Origin: Symbiodinium sp. CCMP2592
Lineage: Eukaryota > Sar > Dinophyceae > Suessiales > Symbiodiniaceae
Assembly (NCBI GenBank): GCA_905221615.1
Contig: CAJNDT010003446.1
Span: forward strand, 186,001 to 250,000
Reading direction: 5' to 3'
Length of the DNA stretch: 64,000 nt
Part shown: piece by piece, positions 14,015 through 61,501 of the stretch
Layout: each line of letters starts with the position of its first letter
Position numbering within the stretch: the first letter of the stretch is position 1
Made by a program: the position numbers and the translations under genes
Notes under the pieces: generated by a model
Told to the model about the DNA's origin: nothing
Databases searched by the model: none
The model's input: the letters and a program-made list of their open reading frames with translations, nothing else

Positions 14015-16705
14015 CTAGGAGTTGTAGTCCAAGACGAGAGCTTCGGGTTCTTCTGCCCGAACGATTTTGTACCAGGTGTGCGTGTACTTTCGCATGTCGA
14101 AGTAGGACTGCAGCATGTACTGGATCTCCACGACGATGGCCACTGGCTCCTTTCGCATTTTCTTGGAGCAATAGTGGCGTCGAGCAGCATCGCTACATTT
14201 GAGATACTGTTGGAGCTCGTCGTCCATGCTGGCCTCATCAATGAAACCCATGTTGAGGTAAGTGTCGAGGAGAAGTTGCCTGAGAACTTGCATGTCTGCT
14301 TGCACAAAATTTTGGCGACTTTCGTCGTACATCACTAGGGCCACGAGTCGAGATTCTTCTCATGCCCCATGGCGTGACATGCATTCACCCTCCACGTGAC
14401 TGCATGCAAACGAGCACCTCGCTCCGGGGGTCATGATCCCCAAGGCTCGCGCACTTCTGAGAATTTGCACCCCTCCTGTTTCAACCAAGAGTGTCGCGCA
14501 AGAAGTACCCCGAGTCCCACAGTCTGCCCAACAAAAAACACAGAAAGCAGCACAGAAACGAAGAAAAAGTAGCAAGTAGAGACCAAAACCCGAGTAGGCC
14601 AAAGATGTTGATCGGAGGAGACCTGGGATTTCCCTGAGGCTTCGGCCGGAACTTGTCCCAGGCGGTGTTGGTCTTCTTCGACGCCTCCGCATGCTCTGGG
14701 CTGCGACCCGCCAGATCTCCCCAGGTAAGGCCCGGGATGAAACGATAGTTCGCCAAGATGTTACGATAGCCCTTGGTGTCCGATAGCGCATCGAAGCTGG
14801 GATCGTAACCGTTCTTGATCCTCACAGGAGGCCCAAACACCTCTTGGGCTTTGGCAAATGCATCTCTGAGCTGCTTGGGCTCCTGAAAGATCCATGCTAC
14901 TCGGTTCGTGTCGATGTTCTCAGCTGCCTTGGGAGACTTAGCCTTTGCGTGGTCCGTGTCCAGCTTGGCCCACATCCTCATAAAGCCCTTTGGAGGAGGG
15001 GCACGGACGGATCCACCAACGCTTTCACAGATCTCTTTTGCTCTGTCTTGGAAGAGATGGTCGACTGCATGCACTGCACTCAGCAAGAGGACGATGTAGG
15101 CTGCTTCGGACATCCTGTAGTCATCCTCCTCCTCATCCTGCTCTTCCAGGCCCAACCTGTCCTCGGGCATCACTATGTGCTCATCCTGTCTTGGCCTCAC
15201 TTTGATCTCGAGGTCCTCACCGATGAATCCAAGCTCTTGGCCAATGTTGTTTTCCACGTACTGCTTCTCATACTTGATGCCGATGCCATCGAGTTTCTTG
15301 ACTGCCAAAGCTTTCAAGTCCTGGAAGCCTTCCTCGTCCTTCCTGTCAGGATCGGGCCACAGCCTCCAGTTTCCGATCAGCCATTTTACTGGCAGCTGGT
15401 AAGACTTCTCGCCGTCACTGATCTTCGACATGGCAGCTTTCAGCCATGACAAAGCTTTCTTACGGTCGGCGCCTTTGGGGGCGACTCCGTCGAGTTCTCG
15501 GTCGGCTCCAGCATGGTTCTGCAAATAGAGAAGCGCGTGCTTGTGATCTTCCGGCCGCTTTGGGTCAGGAGGTTTAAGGGTCTTCATGCGCTCTGCAGCG
15601 TCCTGAGCCGAGCCAGCACGTGCTGGCATCAGCTTCTGCCACAAAGCGTTGCGGCCGGTCATGCTCAGCTGCTTCACATCGACGTCGTCCTGGGCGGACT
15701 AGAGTTCAGGAGAGAGGAGAGGGCGAGACAGGGCTGATGTAGTTGTCTGTGCAAGGCTAATGTAATGGGGAACATGCGCCATGTGCTCTCCTCGTCATAC
15801 TCGTCGCTGTCCTCGTCGTCTCCCTCCTCGTCTTCAGGGTCCTCGTCCCCTCCTTCTTCGTCTTCTCCCTCTTCCTCTTCCTGCTCCTCCGGCACTGGTT
15901 TGGCCTTGGCCTTGGCCTTGCCTTTGGCTTTGGCAACGGCCTTGCTTTGGGCTTTGGCTTTTGCATTGGAGGCTTGCAAGGTGAGCTCGGCAGTCTTCAG
16001 CTTCGACTCCTCCATGGGGGAGAGCTGGGTGCCAAAAAGCCATACCCCGAAGTCCGACAGCACCACCTTGCCATCGTTGTCCGAGTCCATGGCGGTCAAC
16101 AAGACTTTGATGGAAGCATCCGTCCACTCAGCTGCTGAACCCGCCAGGCCTCGCATCAAGGCTCCCAGCTCGACGAAGTCGATCATGCCGTCGCCATCCT
16201 TGTCATACTTCTTGAAAGCCTCCCGAGCTCCGATACATCTACCACACCTGCCGACAGCTACGGCACTACGGTACTCATCAGACTGCTGGGAGGCCTCCAA
16301 GACATGCTGGACCCTTTCGTCGCTTGGATCGGCGTTCTCCTCCTGGAATCGACGAAGGATTTTGCCAAAGCAGCCAGCAATGCGGCAATGCTACATCTGT
16401 GCCTCGTCTGCATCAAGCCCCGGCATCTGGTTGCAGGGGCTCTGCGGCTCTGAGCCAAAGAAGCTGTTGGAAGTCAACATCACATTTGTCATCCTTCGGG
16501 CGGTCCTGGAGAGTCTAATTGGGGGAACACTTGCAGCTCTGCGCTTTAAAGCAACCACTGCACCTCCAGGAGCAAGTCCTTGGTCTCCATGATCTTTACC
16601 TGAGCACCGAGGCGGATCAGTTTCCCCAGGCGGCTGCTCCGGAGTTGGGGGCTCGGCTCTGAGGTGACAGCGCGAGATGAATGACAAGAACTCGGTGGCC
16701 TCCAT
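14015..16705 (-). CDS. EF-hand protein with RelA/SpoT-fold-like region
   Basis: Five exons close in phase: 16705-16608, 16505-16403, 16342-15791, 15689-14633 and 14358-14015 (TAG), about 717 residues. Two calcium-binding EF-hands are clear: YDKDGDGMIDFVEL (around residue 115) and MDSDNDGKVVLSDF (around 160). A Lys/Ala-rich run and an acidic Glu/Asp run follow (about 190-245). The long fourth exon (1057 bp, unusual here) contains NIDTNRVAWIFQEP, PPVRIKNGYDPSFDAL and GYRNILANYRF. The fifth has VEIQYMLQSYFDMRKYTH then WYKIVRAEE. That order (basic strand, GYR..L, EIQ..L, H..YKI) resembles RelA/SpoT-fold proteins I recall from dinoflagellates, a weak similarity. Introns begin GT, GC, GA and GA. 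Nucleotide synthesis or calcium gating is inference only. No membrane span or signal peptide. Confidence 0.8.
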
Positions 16706-23287: not shown

Positions 23288-26200
23288 CTAAATGCCTACA
23301 GGCTGCAGTACACATGTAATTCCATGTAATTCTGGTCGCCTCAGCATGCAGGCTAACAGAGTCTGAAAGTCCAAGCGGCATTCCCAGTTCAATAGCGACA
23401 GCCCGAAGATGCATATGGCAAAAGCACACCATGCCAGGGATGCGCCCAAACTCGTCGAATACGCGATAACGGACACTAGAAACCCGGTGATGCCAACCAC
23501 GAAGCTCACAAGGAAGACCATGACACTCTGAAGCCAATCCTCGGAGACATCTCTACAGTAAGACTAGACTGTCATCACGACCTCTCTGTCCCCGGGCCAT
23601 GAACCATCTAGGATATCCTAAGATCATGTCTGAGCATGTTCATCCTGTGCAAGCTGCGCTTTATCCTCATGATCTACAGAAGGGGTAGAACACTTAGTCG
23701 TGACTTTGTCCTTGTCAGATGTAACTTTCCTTCTTTTCAGCAAAATGGCTGAGTTGTAACTTTTTTGTTAAGAAGAACAAATCTCTGCAAAGGGTTGCAA
23801 GCCAGGCATCTTAGTCATAGCTTTTTGGCACCAAGCCACTAACTGTTTCTGGTGTATTTAGGACCAAATCCCCCCACAATTTGTGTGCCGTGTTTAGCAC
23901 CAAACCAGAACCGTCACACAAGGTTCATCTTGGGTTTTCGTCTTGGGTAGAGGGTTCTCGCTGGATTTACTCCTTAGCCTTATCGTCTTGGGCAAAAGGT
24001 TCTTGTCGGATTCACTCCGTAGGGCTTTCGTCTTCGAGAAAAGGTTCCTGCTGAGCAGTGCTTAATCACGGTGACCCACGCAATGCTACGAGTAAAGCCC
24101 GGAGTGTAGCTTGATTCCCAAAGCCGAACAGATACAGCTTTGACCTGCAAAATACGGATGCACCGGAAACTCAAGCTCCCAATGAGACAACAGGGCTGAA
24201 ACTGACAGTTGAAAATGAAATCCGTACCTCTTGCCAGCTTTCCCAAGTCAGGCTTCACAGCAGCCCGACTTGTACGGAGCGGCGAAGCGTTCGCATACCC
24301 ACATGCTGATCCGGATCTGCACCTGTCACTCCGGACAGTTTGGGACTTGTGGATGCCTCTGATGCATTCAGGCTCAGGGGCCCCATCCCTGTCGAGCTAG
24401 CAGCTAGCCGCCGTCAGAGCCCAACACGTGCAACCCTGCACCCATGAAGACTTACACGGAGTTTCTCTTATCACAGTAACAATAGGCAAGCGAGGTGCCG
24501 CCCCACTGAAGAGGATTGTGCCGAAGAGGATACTGAGGACATAGCAAAAGATGAAGCGAAGTGGCAACCCTCTTTTGATGATGCCGAGCCTCAGACTTGC
24601 CAGCTTAGGAAGCCGTTGGGAACTCTCTGGCAGAATACAAAGTGGCACAGATCAGAAAAAGCTTTCTTATTGCTTGCTGCTTGCTATCTAGACACAAAAT
24701 GTCAATACAGAGGCTCAGGGTCGGCGATACGATGACGAAGATGTACTGCAGCGGTAAGCCGCTGTTGGCCTTGGCCAGCAGCTCTTTCCGGAGAGGACCC
24801 CGAACGTAGTCGGTGAAAGCTTCTCGACTGCCGTACCATCCCTCAATCGCTTGAAGGACAAACTCCCTGTCGAACTCCTTCGCACAGTCCGCCTTGTCAA
24901 CATCGAAATTATCAAGCGATGCAAACAGTTCCTGTTTGGCCGACAGATTTCTCCGCAGAATGTGCACCATTACAACGAATGGAGCAATAGCCGCAGGTGC
25001 CATGAATCTTGGGAGCGTAGGACTTACCATCAGAAGCTGAATGTAGATGATCATGATGATGTACTGACCCAACCAAAGCATCGCCACCCCGGTCTCGAAG
25101 AACAAGGGTGCGAGGGTGATCTTGCCGTTTGGATTTATAAACCGATAGGCCGCTATCTCGAAGACACACCAGAGTCTCGACCTCGGTCGAGCCATTCTTG
25201 CCATTCTTTGTAAGATGTCAACCTGTACATACGTAGAAGAAGCAGTTAACTGGGTCGGGTATTCTGCGTATGCTGCTATAGGATGTACAAGAAGCGTTCT
25301 GTCGTTGGCTGTGAACCTTTCATGGGTTCACTGTTGGGTGTGTCGGGCTTGCTGATCCGCTCTGCTGCTGTTATTAGCCTGCTGGTGTCTGTGGGTTGCA
25401 AACAAATACGAGGGTCTGGGAAAGCGAATTCCAAAGGGCAAGCTGCAAGTATGGCTTCGACCAGAGGATGCGCAACTCCTTGGATACCTTGGACTATTCG
25501 GGTCAACCGTGGGATCCTTTGGGAACTGGGGGCCTCTTGCCAAAGTCCGCAAGTCTCGAGCCAGGAGACCGCCAAGCATCCTCCGAGACCTGAGTGCCAA
25601 GCTTGTGGGTTTCGCGGCTCGGACTGCAAGCCCATGACGTTTGACAGGCGGTAGACTTCAATGGGTAGACAGCATTTATAAATGTTTTTGCCGGACTTTC
25701 GACCTTGGATAGTCCACCGAGCACTGTTCAGTCTTCCAACACTGTAACATGGTCCATGAGCTTAACACGTTCTGGCTAAATACCGCTGTAGCAAGACACG
25801 GTCTCTTGCGATAGTATTTTGTTGCTTACCAGGATCAGGAGGTCTTGACGCCGGAGATTAGCTCTGGCAGAAGGGGCCATACACGAACCCAGCCCATGAC
25901 TCGTTTCGCTGATCTAGCATCAAGAGATGCGCAAGACGAAGCTGCAGAAGTCTTCTCACAAGTCAGTTGGGAGCGGTTGACTGGTCTCCGTCTGGATGCA
26001 AGCCAGGTGGCCATAAATGCCACGCTCCATCAAGTCCTCATCCACTTGGTTGATGCCTTGCAGTGTGGTGCGTTTGCAAAGCTTGCCAATCTGAAACCTT
26101 CGCTAGGCTTACAAAGGAGGCTCAATGTTGCGACGGAGTTGTGTGAGTCGGAGTTTGGCACCATAACTTGTAAAATTGAGAAAAACCGCATCTTGGATGC

Positions 26201-27564
26201 CCTGGCGACGCAAAGTTCAAAGGGGCCATTTGTGATTTTCGTAGAATGAAACTTTTCGCGGTGGCAGATACCTCGGCGCTTATCATGTTTCATTTGCGAA
26301 GCAGAACCTGTGCAATGACGATGAAAGGCATCAGAGTTTGCTCTCGCAGGCAACCAACTGTCCGAGTAACAGGCCGAGATGCTGACGATGTCCAGGAAAC
26401 AGTCTTTGGCACCCCCGGGAGCTACAATGGCCGTGACCACGGGCGCAAGATTTGCCAAGAAGAGACCCCAAGCTCCTGCGCCAAAGAATGCTAAGCTCCT
26501 ACGGTAGAGAACTGAGATCGGCCTTGCGCGCCATGCAGGCTTCAGCACCAAGCCAAATCTACGAGTCCACTGCTAGCACTGTTCCTTGACATTGCATGCT
26601 GCTCATAGCCTTCGCTCATGCCTTGGCAAAAGCCTGGCAAAAGGTCCAGCCCCAAACCCTAACTCAACTTGACGCCGGCACCCGACCCCCAGCTCCGAAA
26701 GGGAAGACGTAGCTGTCGCCTTCAAAAACAGCCTCGGCTCGAGTCTCTCTCCGACGCCTGCAGGCCTGAGGGATTCCCAAACCGAAAGATTGTGCATCAT
26801 CTATTGGGTCTTGGTGTCCGGAAACGGCTTCGCATGCGCGTTGATGCACATTGACTATAGTCACCAGTCACGAGGACAGGTTTAAGGTTTAAGGGTTCGA
26901 AGCCGCAAGCGCCTACTGAGACCCCACTGACAACAAAGGGGCACACATGACGTGGCAGCCTTTCGCACAGTTCTGACGTCCTACAAGGGAAAGCCGCAAG
27001 TCCACAACTGGTACCTGCCGCACATTTCTGCCCAGGCACTGTGAAGTTCATATGGAACGGTAGAATGTCGAAGAAAGCCAGAGTCTCCACGAGAATTAAA
27101 GCGAGGAGCCAGCTAAGCAGGAGCCGCTGCCATCCACACTGCAGAGTCAAAGCCAAAAACTTCCACAACCCTCTGGTTCGCCAAGTGTGCGATAAAAACA
27201 AATCAAAGGACTGCATCTGCCTTGAACGATCCCACATCGCAGCCCGAAGCTCTTCGGACAGGTCCATGGGAGAATAGCGCCAAAGCCGACCGAAACCCCT
27301 CAGTGTATCTTTCACGGAAACACCGCGAATGATGTCGAGGTCAGGAACCAACGCGTCACGCAAGAGCAGGCTTCGTCGACGCCCCTTCTTGGGGCCGGGG
27401 ACCGCTGCAGCTCCGCCAAGATCGACCTGAGCCTGAGCCTGCAAGTCATTGTCTGCGTTGGGACCCGGCGCAGGCAGTGCAGGTGGTACGGAAGTCACCT
27501 CAACATCAACTTCTTGGTCTCTTGAGCAGCCGCATGCACTCGCCGTGCTAGCAGTCGCCCCCAT
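23288..27564 (-). CDS. TIR-like multi-pass membrane protein
   Basis: Met at 27564 begins MGATASTASACGCS, a good N-myristoylation context with nearby Cys. Exon 1 (27564-27015, GT donor) carries FDLFLSHTWRTRGLWK around residue 125, then a membrane segment (LLLSWLLALILVETLAFF). A later exon ends at 26383 with GAKDCFLDIV and joins in phase to 26056-26012 (INQVDEDLMERGIY), both with GC donors. Next come GLGGCLAVSWLETCGLW (about 25600-25540) and SRLWCVFEIAAYRF (about 25185-25145). Several more membrane segments follow to 24600, then frames at 24580-24490 and 23521-23288. FLSHTW, a strand ending in D-x-V-x-I-N/H-Q, then a Trp-Cys strand is the order of TIR-fold cores, as in a membrane-protein family I recall from dinoflagellates. 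No catalytic NADase Glu can be assigned. Function unknown; the 3' exons are tentative. Confidence 0.65.
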
Positions 27565-29089
27565 GGTGCACTGTAGGGCCCGGATGGCTGCGGCAGATGT
27601 CTCCCAGAAGCGCCAGCGCCGTTGGAACAGCTTGCAATTGAATTCACCCGGGCCTTTACCTATACATACCCACCAGATCATACATGCATAGAGTAATAGA
27701 GTCATAGAGAGACGTCCCTTTCTGGCCTTGAGACTCTGGACAGGGCCAAAGCAGCTTCTTGATCTGGAGCTTGGACTCCCGCAGCCTCGAGCCAGGGCTT
27801 TGCGAAAAGCCAGGGGCTTCGAGAGATAAGGAATCTTCTCTAGTTGCTCGAGTCCCAGACGGTCAAGTTCCCGAACGGCGTAGTGAGCTGGTGCGTCCAC
27901 CATCTTCGACCTACGAGTGCCAAAGCTGTGTTCATTCCGGGTGGAGGGCGCGGTTTGTAAGCCGCCCACCACACAACTGACGATGTTAGTCAGCGTCCTG
28001 CAACACCGGCATATGACAAAGACTCCGCAGAGAAGATCAACAAGATGGAGCCTCTGAATCGGATGTCACACCGTCGTCTTTGCCTGCCTTGGCGAACGAC
28101 TTGACTCACTTCTACACACTCCAGCATGGGACACAGGCCAGTGCCACGAAATGACTTGTCACAGCTGGGGTATTTATGCTGCTTCTTGCACTGGGTGAAC
28201 AAGTAATCCTCACTTGTCGGTGTGCCAGAGTGCTTGAGCTACTGCGGTGAAGCTTGCACTTCTTCTTTCACTTCCCTTATCGATGCAAAAGCTATGCTAT
28301 GTCCGAGGTTGCAGGGAGAAACGGCCAACTCAGGCTCTTGAAACTCTTCCCAGAGCAGGGAGTGGCAAATGCTATCAAGGAAGCGGGACTCTGACAAAAA
28401 GGACGCTGAAAGCCGGTGTCGTCCAGCAAAGAAAGTGCATTTACTGCAGCAGATGTCCAATCCAGAACAAGCCCGGCGTGGTGCCCGTCGTCAGTGCGCG
28501 AAAAGAAAATTGCCCATGCAGCAGATTTGAAGCGGCGACTGCGGAAAGATAAGGCCTGCAGGCCGCGGCCGTTGTCCAGTGAAGCACGAGTTTCTGAATC
28601 AAGGACCGGCTGTCTTGCAGGGGCATAGGGCAGGTCTCCACAGGGAGTAGGGCAGAACAAGATGTCCAGTGAAAGCTAGCTCCCAACTCAGCGCGCTCAC
28701 ATCAGGATTGAAAAGCAGAAGTGCCAATTCAGTTACAACGAGCACGCGTTAATGAGCAAAGGCTCGATTTAGGTTCTCTCTCTCACTCTCTCTCTCTCTC
28801 TATCCTAGGCTTGGGGACCGATCAAAGTCCCCGGGCATATTAGCCCACCCAATGCATTGATTGGGCCCTCTCTGCTTTGCTAGGGGCTAGGAGCGGGACC
28901 CTCGCGCTTTACCGCGCACAGGGGTTGGTACAGGAAGGAAAGAAAGGCCGAGATTTCTTGTGGAACGACTCACGGGTACCCCCACCAGAAACCTCTATAC
29001 TAAACCACAACCCGCCTCGACGGCTAAGGTGTGAGTGCCCCCCTACAGCCGGTGTCGATCCCCCATCTCGAGCTCAGTGCCCGACTGTC
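27565..29089. other. No supported gene
   Basis: Open frames at 27972-27600 (minus) and 28240-28690 (both strands) lack domain content. A short CT tract lies at about 28775-28801. Confidence 0.4.
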
Positions 29090-32956: not shown

Positions 32957-34335
32957 TGCCACGGCCTCATCTCCTAAGTACGAACACCGAAGACGACGCA
33001 AACTCTTCTTCCCTGCCAGCTGCTTTGAGAAGCGCTTACTAGAGCCCGGTAGGGCATCCGGGCATAGCCCCATTTTGCATCGGGAAGTTGAACAGTTCTG
33101 CAAACTGCTTGCACGCTGTTGGTGCAAAATCCGGCTTGACCTGCACGCGCTGCAAGTCGCAACATGCAACAAGTGCTGCGCGCAAAGGCCGGACCACGGT
33201 GTGTGCTGATTTGTATCCGTTCAAGACACATGTGTTCAAGACACATCTTGTCTCCTACATGCCGCTGCATATCTGTGCCAACATGTTGAAGTCAAGTTTT
33301 ACTCGTGATGCTCGTGTGGGGCTGCTGTCAGTGTCTCTGCGTGCGAACAAACCCCATGGCAGTTTGGATATGTATGGATATAGGGAAGAATACTGGGAAT
33401 GTTAACGATTCTAGTACTAATTGCAGGTGAGGATTATACACTACTAATGACAGGTAGGTCTTACGAGCATGATGAGCATGGTGCTCATGCTCGGCCAAGC
33501 CGTCTACGATAGATCATGAACAGCCACCATTTGGACCTGCCGCCCGTCCAGAACGATGAGCACCAGCCGGCTGCTTTGAGGCACGTGTTTGAGGTTCTGA
33601 TATCAACTGCATTGAGGAGTGCTTGACCAGCTAGCACACGTCGCAGACTTTGGCGAAGGCTCTGTCGCTGTCCAGGGTGTGGATTAAAGGGAGGCCGTTT
33701 CGTGAGTTGGCCTGTCCAATATGCCAGCTAATGCGGAAGGGGACAGTTTTCGTGATGTACTGCTTGACTTAAGGCGCCGGTGGCGGGAGGCAGGCCCCTT
33801 GTTAAGGCCCGATCGACGCAAGACTTCAGCTTCACCTAACACAAAACGTTCCGTCAGCCAGTACAGCAGCTTTTCGAATGCTCTGGAGCCTCTACGGTGT
33901 GTGGAACAGCACCTTCAGGATGGGTCTCCTTCGTGCGGCCTCTCAGTCTGAACTTGCAAAGTCCCATGCGTACCGGCGCACGTGTTTTTCGGGAAAAGGA
34001 GCACAGGCTCAGCCGTCAGTCGCCGCCGTGTCTGCACCGTTGGCTACAGCATTCAAAGGCCCGCCAAGCAGCTCTCGACTCTCGTCTTTCAACCCCTGCA
34101 ATTCGTCTAAGTCCAGCTTTCAACACCAGCGAGAGCTTTGCTTGGCTCGGTGGGACTCATCAATCGTTGCAGCTCCGTGCCGGTGCAGTCATAGGGATTC
34201 GTGCAACTGGCCGGGCTCCACAGAAAACCACGAGACTTCTTCGCCTTTCGTCTCGGATTGCACGTCCGGCCAATCTCTCTTTGTAATGAGATTCGAAGGG
34301 CCGCAGGGGCCGAAAATTTTGAGACTCTCCAGGCT
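32957..34335. other. GPx 3' flank; possible short exons
   Basis: A minus-strand frame at about 33145-33039 (VQVKPDFAPTACKQFAELF) ends in a stop and looks like a C-terminal exon of an unidentified gene. Another exon-like stretch lies near 33905-33820 (AFEKLLYWLTERFVLGEAE). The region next to 34336 is the 3' UTR of the peroxidase, where a SECIS element should lie; I could not recognise one by eye. Confidence 0.4.
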
Positions 34336-36050
34336 CTAGAGCAGCTTCACGATCTCCTCTTCGAAGGACTTCGGCGACTGCACAGGCCAGCACCGAAACT
34401 CAACACAAAGACAGTGACGGCATCAGCAGGTTGTCGTGAGAGCTGAGTGATGGGAGTACGGGCGGTGGCGACACACCAGTCGTGGTTGTTTTCGTCGTCT
34501 CTATCAGCACTATTGTAGCAGCAGCAGCAGCAGCAGTAAAAAGTACGAGCAATTACAGTAGTAGGGCAGTAGCAGCAAGCGTACAGGGAGTAGCCGAGTG
34601 GGGGCATGGAAGTGGGACTAATAGCAGTCGCAGAATGAGGAGCAGTAAGTACTTGGTGTCATCAACATCATTGTCATGGCTGCAGCCATCGCTGGTAATT
34701 ACCAGCATTATGAGGATAGACCCTGATACAGCTTTCTGTGGGTCGCGAGGCCTGCTGCGGCCCGAAGCGTGCAACAGGCTGTCCTTGCCGGTCCTCAGCG
34801 AAGGCACATCCTAGACTTGTCGGCCGATACAGATGCGTCGAATGCGCAAGTCTTGTGAAAATGTTGCTGTGTGGTGACGGCCCTGATCTCAATTCAGAGC
34901 AGGAGGTGTGTTGGTTATTGAACAAGAAGAGCCCCGTGCCACCAGGAACTTGGCAAAGTTCCACTTGATGTCGCTTCCCAACCTCAGACAAAGACCCACT
35001 ACGAAGTGCTGTTTCGCCAGTAAGCGAGACCCGAACAGCTCTCCCTGTCGGGCTTTCAAGAAGGTGTACAAAGGAGCCTGTGGCTCACCAGCTTCACAGA
35101 TGAACCTCCGCACGTCACTGTTAGGCCTCGTTGTCGCCGTTGACGTCAATCTTCGCGAAGAGGGGGAAGGTGTCCGGGCACTTTGACTGGGCAAAAGCCT
35201 TCCAGAACCCGCAAACTCCACGCAGAACCAAGCTAAAGTAATAAAGAGGCTGTTTCTGGCGCCATCCAGACGAGCCTTGACCTCGGCATTGCTGCCAGGC
35301 TCCTGGCTTATGATCTGGGCCTCGACATGACCGTGACATGATATTGCCCGCCTGGCCCCCGAACTGGTTGCACGGAAATCCAAGCACCTCTACGAGACAC
35401 TTGGCTGCGATCAAAGGTGCTGTGATTTTTTTGAGGGAGAAATACTCACTACCCCGTGTCAGATGCAGGAACAGGAACCAGTACAGTTCAGTACAGTTCT
35501 GGCTTATTTGATGTAGCTGTCTTCCATGCCGTTCCCATCACAAGCCCCGCAGTTTGAGAACAGAAGCGTGCCGGACCGGGAGGGTCAGAGACCTGATCTT
35601 CTGCAGGGCGGACCTCGAATCCTCGAGATCGGTACTTTCCATACAGTTCACACCTGGCAAGTTCGCTTCCCCTTCTGTAATTAGAGCAGCAAAAGGCCGG
35701 TGCAGGCTCAGGCCGCGACAATTCAGCATAATTCGTCTTTGTCAAACCTTGTCAGGTTCCACTAACAAGGTGCAGACATGGAGCGGGGGGGGGGGGGGCC
35801 TCATTTGCTTGCAAGATTGACGACGAGCACCACTTTGCCCGAGTACTCCTGCAGCGAGACCTCCTGGCCATCGATGTTCTGGACCTCAGAGCAGCGCTTT
35901 GAGAGCTGAAAGGCGGCGGATCCCACGCGGCCTGGAAGTCGTAGATGCTGTCGCCAGCAACTTCCTGCCGTCGAGTTGGAAGCCATGTAAGCGTCAGGTG
36001 CCAAGGTCCGAAGCAAGGCGTGCTCTTGGTGGACACGGCTTTACGTACGA
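34336..36050 (-). CDS. GPX: Selenocysteine glutathione peroxidase (probable)
   Basis: Eleven exons join in phase: about 36050-35932, 35884-35800, 35747-35714, 35653-35614, 35387-35352, 35302-35276, 35198-35127, 35077-35040, 34982-34933, 34783-34752, 34377-34336 (TAG). Reading order: DSIYDFQ, VQNIDGQEVSLQEYSGKVV, VVNLASK, then UGA, GLTKTNYAELSR, LYGKYRSRGFE, VLGFPCNQFGGQ, EPGSNAEVK, AFAQSKCPDTFPLFAKIDV, APLYTFLKARQG, LGSDIKWNFAKFLVARG, QPVARFGPQQ, SPKSFEEEIVKLL. The catalytic set (residue at UGA, Gln of FGGQ, Trp and Asn of KWNF) is complete. The enzyme reduces peroxides with glutathione or thioredoxin. Donors are GC except one GT (after 35614). A UGA exactly where Cys or Sec is expected, with coding continuing in phase, is why I call it selenocysteine. 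The first exon has no in-frame Met, so the start lies in an unseen upstream exon. Confidence 0.88.
35801..35803 (-). other. In-frame UGA, probable selenocysteine codon
   Basis: On the minus strand exon 35884-35800 reads GCA AGC AAA TGA G, then a GC donor at 35799-35798. The next exon (35747) supplies GT, so the codon after UGA is GGT and translation continues LTKTNY. In GPx families the residue after ASK is Sec or Cys and is followed by Gly-Leu/Phe-Thr, exactly as seen. Confidence 0.82.
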
Positions 36051-36720
36051 ATGTCTAATCGCCAAGTCATTCACAACAACCTTCATTGCACGATGCCTCA
36101 TGCTGGCGACTACACTGCAGTACATACAGCCCGTGGTTTAATGTGGTACGGTGTATCAACACACCCATGTATGTGATGCCATCACGCGAACGTATGCATG
36201 TATGTATGTGATGTGATGTGACGTATGTATGTATGTATGCATGCATGCGTGTGTACATGCATGTATTTATGAATGTATGCATGTATGCGCGTAGTAATTC
36301 GCTAATCCACAAATGTATGCATGCATGCATGCATGCATGCATGTATGTAGGCATGGCTGCCTGTCTGCCTGCCTATGTGTATGGATGTATGTATGTATGT
36401 ACATTACTTACAGCACGTGTATGTGGTGTGTATGTGATATGCTTCTAGTCATGTATGTTCGGTATGTATAAGGATGCCAGGGGAACGACAACTTGTAGGC
36501 ATTCCCAAGTCTATTACATAACACCGTTCGGGGATTTTGGTAACGACGTTCGTGGGGATTTGGCTGTCCTTTATCGCGAACCTTTCACGGACCCGCTGTT
36601 TTACATCTAAAGGCCGGCACATACATATTATATATATATATATATATATATGTGTATATAGGTGTGTGTGTGTGTACACTGCATATGATATGCAGACACG
36701 GGCCTTTGGATCAATGCACT
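36051..36720. repeat. ATGT/CATG microsatellite region and TA/GT tract
   Basis: At 36180-36400 units of TATG and CATG alternate (ATGTATGTATGC...). At 36629-36675 a TA tract passes into GTGTGT. No gene is supported. Confidence 0.85.
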
Positions 36721-37790
36721 TCCCTGTGGGTGTTCGCAACATCCCATTCATACGCGCTGGACGGCTCCCAGCAGAAGGTAGCTCAGCAATCGTCGGGTCA
36801 TGAGGCCTTGCTGCTGCCACCGCCCATGAGCTCACGAGCAACTCCTGGGGATCGCCTGCAGAAATTGAAGCAAAAAGTCCGAGCCAAGAGGAAGAGAGGG
36901 CGGACACCTTCTGACCTTTTCCTGCTGTGGTCAGCGCCGAGGGAAAGTCTCATGTCCCGGCTGCGGGGTGGCTCTCGAAAATCAAGGGCAGCAAGGCAGG
37001 GGGGAGCTGGCTGGGAGGGCAAAGGCGCTAAGAGGAGCTCTTCTGGCCCATCGGTCTATGCCTCAGCAGGAGCTGGCGCGCGTATCTCACTTGAGTCGTT
37101 TCTGAGCCTTCCGAAGTGTCGCAGAATCCTGGCGCCACACGAGCGGGGCCCATCACTCGGCACATGTTCTCTCAGTCCGCACCTCGGCCAAACACCTGCT
37201 GCAAGTGCACGTGAAGCCATATTCCAACAGCCTCGAGCCAAATCACACGGACCGATTCTGCAGGACCATCACTTATTTATTTTCTCCGTGGTTGTGCCTG
37301 CGTCTGCGTGTTTGCACATCTGCTTCCTGGAGGAGTTTTCAGCCCAGTGATATCGACTGCCGGGCAAGACTCATGCCTGGTTGACGTAGCAGATGCAGAG
37401 CTCGTCACCCGGCGAAATGTTCAAGACCTAATAGCTTACTGTGTGACATATCCAACATTCACTGGACAACTGCGAGGCGACCCTCATGATACGGGCACTA
37501 CAAGTAGCGTAAGAACCTGATGAAGATAACCTGGCTATGAATTCTGGATCCACGTCAAGGCCATGGCCTATCGTAACCGGGTTCCTACGATTCTGGCCAC
37601 GCAGCGGAAGTCGCCGTCAAGCGGGCCGAGTTTCCCGGAAAGGCGACCTTTTGGCTGCAGACAGTGGCTGGCTTGAAGAAACTGGAGTTGCAGAGCTGCA
37701 GACTTTATATGCTGTAACAGCAAGGACCCTCCTAACCGGTGTGCGGTCAGAGCACCTTCATGTTGGGCGCACCTGTGGCAAGGCAGATCA
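36721..37790. other. No supported gene
   Basis: A plus-strand frame (36652-37350) begins in a microsatellite and includes a basic stretch (KLKQKVRAKRKRGR). Without exon signals or a domain I do not call it. Confidence 0.35.
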
Positions 37791-59847: not shown

Positions 59848-60720
59848 CCATTCTTCTGAAAGGGTGGGCTCAGCTGGACAGGGCTGCAGTGCCCAAACTT
59901 GTGCCCTTTGCTTTTGTGGGGGAAGCGAGTTGACTCTTCCACACAGCCAAGAGGGACAGTCGAGACTACCACTCCGCGCACGTGCGAGCCCTGGATTATA
60001 GGGGCTTTACGGCGAGCGGGAGAAAGATGCCTGGCTGGAACGAGCAAGAGCTGTAATGTAGGCCTTTGATGGCCTTTGTGTTGGCACTGCTTTTGTATCC
60101 CCAAGTGCAGACACTCAGAGCCCCCGGCATCTGGCATGAGCCCCTTCTGCAACATGACGGAAGATCGAGGATTCTAGTGAAGTACGGTAGTTGGGGCTTA
60201 CATGCGATGCTCGGCGACTGGTCTTTCATTTGACCCCTGACACCTCGCCTTCGAGAACAACCGCCGAATCCTTGTTGACTCTCTCTCTCTCTCTCTCTCT
60301 CTCGCTTGTCTTTCTTGTCTCAGTTTCCTCTGTTTTCCAACATGTCGGGTTGCAGGTTGCACAGGCAGTGGCCTTCCGTTGCCCCGAAACGCAAGAACCT
60401 CAAGCCGGTCGACGACCATTTTCATTGGCACACCTCACAAGCATCTCAGGTATAGTATTGACTAATTGGCAATGTCTCTCTATGTCATCGTCTTGTGTCA
60501 AATGTGTCACGTTAAGGTGGCATACTAGTAACAATCATCCTCTACATAGTTTTCGTAGATACGGATAGACAGGCAGGTACACAAGCAGATAGATGGACGT
60601 TCGATGTACATGTGCCGTGGCGCTCCCGACAGTTCTTGCCAGTGCCCGGTCCGGACGTAGGAACAAGTTCGATGCTGCTCCTGTATGTTGTGAACATTTA
60701 ACACACGAGCTTTATTTCGT
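59848..60720. other. No supported gene; CT tract
   Basis: A CT microsatellite is at 60278-60303. Nothing else is recognised. Confidence 0.45.
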
Positions 60721-60848
60721 CGTAGGCTGATGGTGTTCCATTCTTACCGTGCCCCGGATCTCGCTCCCCAAGTAGTGTTCGTTTCCGGTAGTTGGTCCCG
60801 TTCAAGCCATTTATCTCGGCTCAACGCGGCACCAGCAACAGCAGAAAC

Positions 60849-61222
<374 letters not shown>

Positions 61223-61501
61223 TTGTAGGAGTAATCGTCGTCGTCGTCGCGGGACTCGTCGTCGTCCTACCATGGTACAACAGTATCAGTCTGCAATAGG
61301 AATTGGCTCTGACTCTCCCTTTCCGGAACCGCTTCTGCAATTACAACCCATCTCGTGTGCTATCTCGTTCTGATCCGACACTCCGAACCGACTGTCATGC
61401 ACCAAGATTCAAGCAGATCCGTAATACATATCATCGCATTATCATTACCATGTCCGCCACTCTGCCGCGCACGTCTTACCGGAATCTGGAAGCGTGCCTG
61501 C

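Follow-up and report, generated by a model that had tools for sequence, protein, structure and literature searches.

Structure of the glutathione peroxidase gene

The window, meaning the whole 64,000-nt stretch of DNA analysed, carries an intron-rich gene for the antioxidant enzyme glutathione peroxidase (GPx) on its minus strand. In the splice model the gene comprises 11 exons, running from 35952 to 34336, and 159 codons, and it ends at a TAG stop (34338-34336). The sole internal stop among these codons is a TGA at 35803-35801, with one exon before the exon that contains it and nine after. The exons at 35884-35800 and 35747-35714 (minus strand) join in phase to read VVNLASK-TGA-G/LTKTNY. An initial annotation of this DNA had described the exon end VVNLASK-UGA-G and its continuation as LTKTNY, and the splice model reproduces the residues, phase and coordinates exactly; its 'ten further exons' correspond to the nine after the UGA exon plus the one before. 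Its placing of a UGA at the Cys/Sec site and nowhere else also holds over all 159 codons, as does its GC-donor intron 1 nt past the UGA (35799-35748, GC...AG), with nine introns after the UGA. The features, taken from the splice model unless stated otherwise, are listed below.

36807-36827, minus: putative first coding exon, MGGGSSK, proposed from a phase-compatible GC-AG join to 35964 rather than from homology
35932-35964, minus: exon EVAGDSIYDFQ, starting at 35952 or extended to 35964
35800-35884, minus: exon VQNIDGQEVSLQEYSGKVVLVVNLASK-UGA-G
35801-35803, minus: TGA codon at the catalytic Cys/Sec position (splice model and alignment to relatives)
35748-35799, minus: GC-AG intron of 52 nt, beginning 1 nt past the UGA
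35714-35747, minus: exon (G)LTKTNYAELSR
35614-35653, minus: exon CELYGKYRSRGFE, boundary uncertain by about 2 residues
35352-35387, minus: exon VLGFPCNQFGGQ, with the catalytic Gln (Gln in 115 of 115 relatives)
35276-35302, minus: exon EPGSNAEVK
35127-35198, minus: exon AFAQSKCPDTFPLFAKIDVNGDNE
35031-35077, minus: exon APLYTFLKARQGELFG
34943-34973, minus: exon DIKWNFAKFL, with the catalytic Trp and Asn (each in 111 of 115 relatives)
34752-34793, minus: exon DRQGQPVARFGPQQ
34336-34377, minus: last coding exon, SPKSFEEEIVKLL, and TAG stop

The 10 introns between the modelled exons are 47-374 nt long, and have seven GC and three GT donors and exclusively AG acceptors. This donor set points to a dinoflagellate as the probable host. 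In Symbiodinium, GC, GT and GA are all reported as frequent donors, and other dinoflagellates also have non-GT donors (PMC5177918 and PMC5029490). Dinoflagellate genes are described as intron-poor as a rule (PMC5029490); about 20 exons per gene are given for two of the three Symbiodinium species tabulated in PMC5177918. A search of the window for a DinoSL relict gave none.

At the 5' end, DSIYDFQ of the first modelled exon aligns to PDB 2p5q. Upstream, an 842-nt GC-AG intron would separate position 35964 from the MGGGSSK exon at 36827-36807, whose reading phase makes it a probable N-terminal start of the GPx. The sequence MGGGSSK resembles an N-myristoylation start. Dense CATA/GCAT and TA microsatellites occupy 36200-36680 within this putative first intron and give rise to microRNA matches in Rfam, all of them under the gathering scores. 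At the 35714/35653 exon boundary, the model has two residues in excess of the solved GPx structures.

Catalytic site, related loci and selenocysteine machinery

The spliced product scores 136.2 bits with the Pfam GSHPx family (PF00255), for which the cut-off is 27 (E 3.9e-40). Solved GPx structures can be aligned to its residues 5-162 (2p5q, E 4.7e-48), so the gene model is not a product of chance. Over these query residues, 2p5q, a plant GPx5, and 2v1m/2wgr, from Schistosoma, belong to the same family as the window gene; at the site of its UGA, the residue is Cys in 2p5q and 2v1m and Ser in 2wgr. The in-frame UGA thus aligns to the Cys/Sec of homologues, and the coding sequence continues past it. 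With the UGA in the Cys column, the catalytic tetrad is complete: Gln, Trp and Asn are all present, and are kept in 115, 111 and 111, respectively, of 115 relatives (80 from genome contigs, being the best 80 of 582, and 35 from viral contigs). The catalytic column itself holds Cys in 111 of the 115, followed by Gly in 110 and by Ser in one (L081), counts that are biased to Cys-Gly because one of the six query peptides used in the fetch spans the site and only the best 80 of 582 were kept. The other four are viral sequences (L031-L034) which in the alignment have neither Cys-Gly nor Cys-Ser at the site.

A protein search of the genome (1.098 Gb in 5383 contigs) at E values up to 10 gives 12 matches, six of which are exons of the window gene. 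The other six comprise one on contig C5051, four in three loci (C2524, C4844 and C823) and one on C5379. The C823 locus is weak genome-wide (E 2.05) and is confirmed in a search of a 9.9-kb region (E 4.8e-6 and 5.1e-5). The match on C5379 (E 5.1) lies outside the catalytic site and is left out of the codon count. The catalytic codon is therefore seen in five GPx loci of this genome, and is TGA in four (the window, C2524, C4844 and C823) and Cys in C5051. The sites in C2524, C4844 and C823 read NVATN-U-GFTKSNY, NVASR-U-GFTKKHY and NVASE-U-GATAANY, respectively. In each of the three, the TGA is followed by GG, and the UGA and its flanking residues lie within a single uninterrupted frame with homology on both sides. 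All four TGA-bearing loci give split, eukaryote-like matches. The Cys-type GPx on C5051 (L116) adjoins long, intronless reading frames; this contig is probably bacterial, in which case the assembly holds a bacterial contig.

Two identical tRNA-Sec genes are present in the genome, each scoring 63.3 bits where the gathering score is 47. Both have a 9-bp acceptor stem and the anticodon loop CUUCAGU, giving the anticodon UCA. Each of the 14 control genomes also has matches to the tRNA-Sec model at E 0.001, over the cut-off in five of them; ARAGORN calls neither of the two genes. Four weaker matches to the model, on C5051 (40-41 bits), fall under the cut-off, and ARAGORN calls one of the four tRNA-Cys and another tRNA-Ser. 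For SepSecS there is a single exon-sized match, whose translation includes a TGA; it scores 31.5 bits (E 2.6e-5), where the cut-off is 224.85. The same model finds matches in one of 14 control genomes. This weak exon match suggests that SepSecS is encoded in the genome. A genome search at E 0.001 for the Rdx family (SelT/SelW) is negative, and at a thioredoxin-reductase-like locus on C220 a Cys-Sec-Gly end was not found within 25.9 kb. Consequently, the genome provided no independent SECIS element as a yardstick.

Downstream region and SECIS-like elements

Standard tools do recover SECIS elements in related organisms: SECISaln did so for the selT gene of the syndinean Amoebophrya (PMC6394959) and SECISearch for Symbiodinium (PMC7539508). 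An ordinary SECIS would thus be expected in the window gene too. Rfam returns nothing at gathering scores over the whole window. At permissive E values there are 28 matches over the gene and three in the 3' region; none is a SECIS, and these matches were rejected as microsatellite look-alikes and chance matches. Across the genome, the RF00031 model yields no SECIS among the 150 of 19930 candidates scored, and a strict SECIS scan of 34420-32300 is also negative.

A canonical scan (AUGA or GUGA core, AA or CC loop) of 34335-28100 gives one poor AUGA site, ATGAG...TGAA, at 34160-34088, with eight pairs and a stem I of three. This is within the background rate, the two strands of the whole window holding 23 and 19 such sites. 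At 34150-34058 there is an only mildly stable hairpin (z -1.39), equalled by 17 of 200 shuffles. Allowing for a SECIS split by one 3'-UTR intron gives no match in 1456 donor-acceptor pairs, with matches in five of 16 control tiles. The sensitivity of the scanners is not established, since in their one positive control, human GPX4, the 3' core of the element recovered is doubtful. It is in its SECIS that the selenocysteine reading is weakest: the scans gave no convincing canonical element downstream. Mammalian SECIS elements have an AUGA core, and in this respect the window gene differs from mammalian GPX4, as no convincing AUGA SECIS was found downstream of it.

When the core is relaxed to NUGA, one candidate of its kind is found within 34335-32800.

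34096-34172, minus: SECIS-like candidate with a UUGA core, CTGCAA / cga / TTGAT ... AGAC / gaa / TTGCAG, with AA near the apical loop

The candidate spans 164-240 nt past the TAG stop, has a 9-nt bulge and has no A ahead of UGA. In folding, its region does not surpass shuffled sequence (z 0.22; 117 of 200 shuffles at least as stable), and the Rfam SECIS models do not match it. In one scored scan it is the top downstream site (9.98), a score equalled in about half of 60 shuffles; a second gives it 11.7, against a background best-of-82-tiles median of 11.1 and maximum of 16.1.

A counterpart lies in the C4844 gene, the stop of which is a TAG at L132:4018-4020. This element (L132:4149-4210) reads AAGCTGTGG-cca-GTGAT-(helix, AGAA loop)-GGAG-tcgc-CTGCGGCTT, begins 129 nt past the stop and has the same order of parts as the window element. 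It too is unmatched in Rfam. The C4844 region folds with a z of -2.59 (4 of 200 shuffles as good), and folding support is stronger for this GUGA element than for the UUGA element of the window.

Under one set of criteria, 187.6 kb searched on both strands contain seven sites, five of which, including the window and C4844 elements, have an inner energy of -8 or lower. Shuffling of the 300-nt segments after the stops gives a site in 20 of 2000 cases for the window and eight of 2000 for C4844. With a helix I of five, or without the AA, these numbers become 59 and 57 (window) and 17 and 44 (C4844); the loosest criteria, at 590 and 404 of 2000, are uninformative and were set aside. Because the criteria were drawn up after both elements had been seen, this support is suggestive at most. 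A looser scan of C2524, C4844 and C823 gives eight sites with a stem I of at least four, one of them the C4844 element. The UUGA/GUGA architecture was not found downstream of C2524 and C823, where the stop codons were not located. In both genes with a located stop (window and C4844), a SECIS-like element falls within 250 nt after it.

It is conceivable, if rather doubtful, that in this lineage the SECIS of GPx mRNAs is a variant in which a UUGA or GUGA core replaces AUGA and which starts about 130-165 nt past the stop. If so, this would be a dinoflagellate SECIS form overlooked by canonical scans, and dinoflagellate selenoproteomes may be undercounted, because surveys seek the canonical element. 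Among titles and abstract openings listed for selenoproteins, SECIS and UGA, in sources that cover subscription journals thinly, none names a dinoflagellate SECIS without AUGA.

Decoding of the UGA codon

The gene very probably encodes a monomeric phospholipid-hydroperoxide GPx (GPx4/plant type) in which UGA is decoded as selenocysteine. This reading is well supported by the position of the UGA on the catalytic column, the same TGA in three paralogous loci and the presence of tRNA-Sec in the genome. The initial annotation had proposed a selenocysteine GPx from the window gene, and the proposal gains from the TGA in all four eukaryote-like loci and from the tRNA-Sec (UCA). The gene would be transcribed and spliced as modelled, and the selenocysteine machinery would be recruited by a SECIS of its 3' UTR, for which the UUGA element (34172-34096) is a possible candidate. 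Insertion of Sec at the UGA would create a predicted Sec-Gln-Trp-Asn peroxidase active site, at which lipid or hydrogen peroxides could be reduced by thiols.

A quite improbable alternative is loss of the UGA through splicing. If a GA-AG intron began 3 nt before the modelled one (AAAT/GAGG...CAAG/GT), the product would be a Cys enzyme, ASK-C-LTKTNY, without the conserved Gly, either alone or beside the selenocysteine form. Among 89 donor-acceptor pairs tried, 13 keep an open frame through this stretch, and no other of the 13 gives Cys at the site; moreover, two of the three Symbiodinium genomes in the table of PMC5177918 have GA as one of their predominant donors. However, such an intron would have T at -1 and a GA donor, against G at -1 and GC or GT in the nine other introns, and would drop a Gly that follows Cys in 110 of the 115 relatives. 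It also misfits the three paralogous loci, in each of which a single open stretch runs through UGA-GG and is homologous on either side of it.

The UGA could instead be a recent nonsense mutation at the catalytic Cys codon, in a young pseudogene or through an assembly error, an explanation about as improbable as that of alternative splicing. The lack of a convincing SECIS downstream is what it has in its favour. Nonetheless, of 72 possible one-step mutations creating a stop in the 159-codon frame only one (1.4%) falls at this codon, the rest of the model shows no damaged exon or splice site, and recurrence of the same TGA in three paralogous loci would not be expected. Reassignment of UGA, or its readthrough as another amino acid, on the pattern of Amoebophrya ex Karlodinium, where all three stops are reported to have become sense codons (PMC6394959), has some appeal in a host that is probably a dinoflagellate, yet it is the least likely reading, because the only UGA among the 159 codons is the one at the Cys/Sec site, and a tRNA-Sec is present in the genome.

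With nine introns past the UGA, exon-junction-dependent decay would read this codon as premature. In mammalian GPx genes, UGA likewise lies upstream of introns and looks premature to decay. Mammalian GPX4 has a UGA-encoded Sec with several introns downstream, an arrangement that it shares with the window gene; its structure (2obi) is homologous to the window product over residues 6-158. The mammalian decay rule concerns stops 50 nt or more before the last junction (PMC5029490). Dinoflagellates have decay factors, whose mode of action may resemble that in yeast and insects (PMC5029490), and the decay of selenoprotein mRNAs is already a studied subject (PMC4911915). The warning in the initial annotation that the UGA would look premature to decay is fair as regards the nine introns, yet it is generic, and decay in dinoflagellates may differ (PMC5029490).

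A selenocysteine GPx in this genome is a further example of an enzyme type already known from algae, and no surprise, given that Sec-containing GPX is widespread there (PMC7539508). That survey reports it in over half of 36 algal genomes, finds GPX to be mainly Sec-containing and covers Symbiodinium minutum, with 29 selenoprotein genes (26 in another passage); the earlier remark that many algal GPx enzymes are selenoproteins agrees with it. The window gene is like these algal enzymes in having UGA at the GPx catalytic codon and, if the candidate is right, unlike them in having a SECIS without an AUGA core. The present locus adds a well-supported selenoprotein gene, whose UGA recurs in three paralogous loci, to a genome that is probably that of a dinoflagellate. 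A gene caller that takes UGA as a stop would truncate all four GPx genes at the active site.

Elsewhere in the window, an ORF at 15674-16390 (minus strand) encodes an EF-hand protein (Pfam EF-hand_7, E 4.5e-12), which continues into a lysine-rich and then an acidic stretch. Frames at 24605-28065 (minus strand) resemble a multi-pass membrane protein and contain an FLSHTW motif; the two ORFs tested have no Pfam match. An ORF at 60694-61299 (plus strand) encodes a long, near-pure run of valine, as would arise from a microsatellite.
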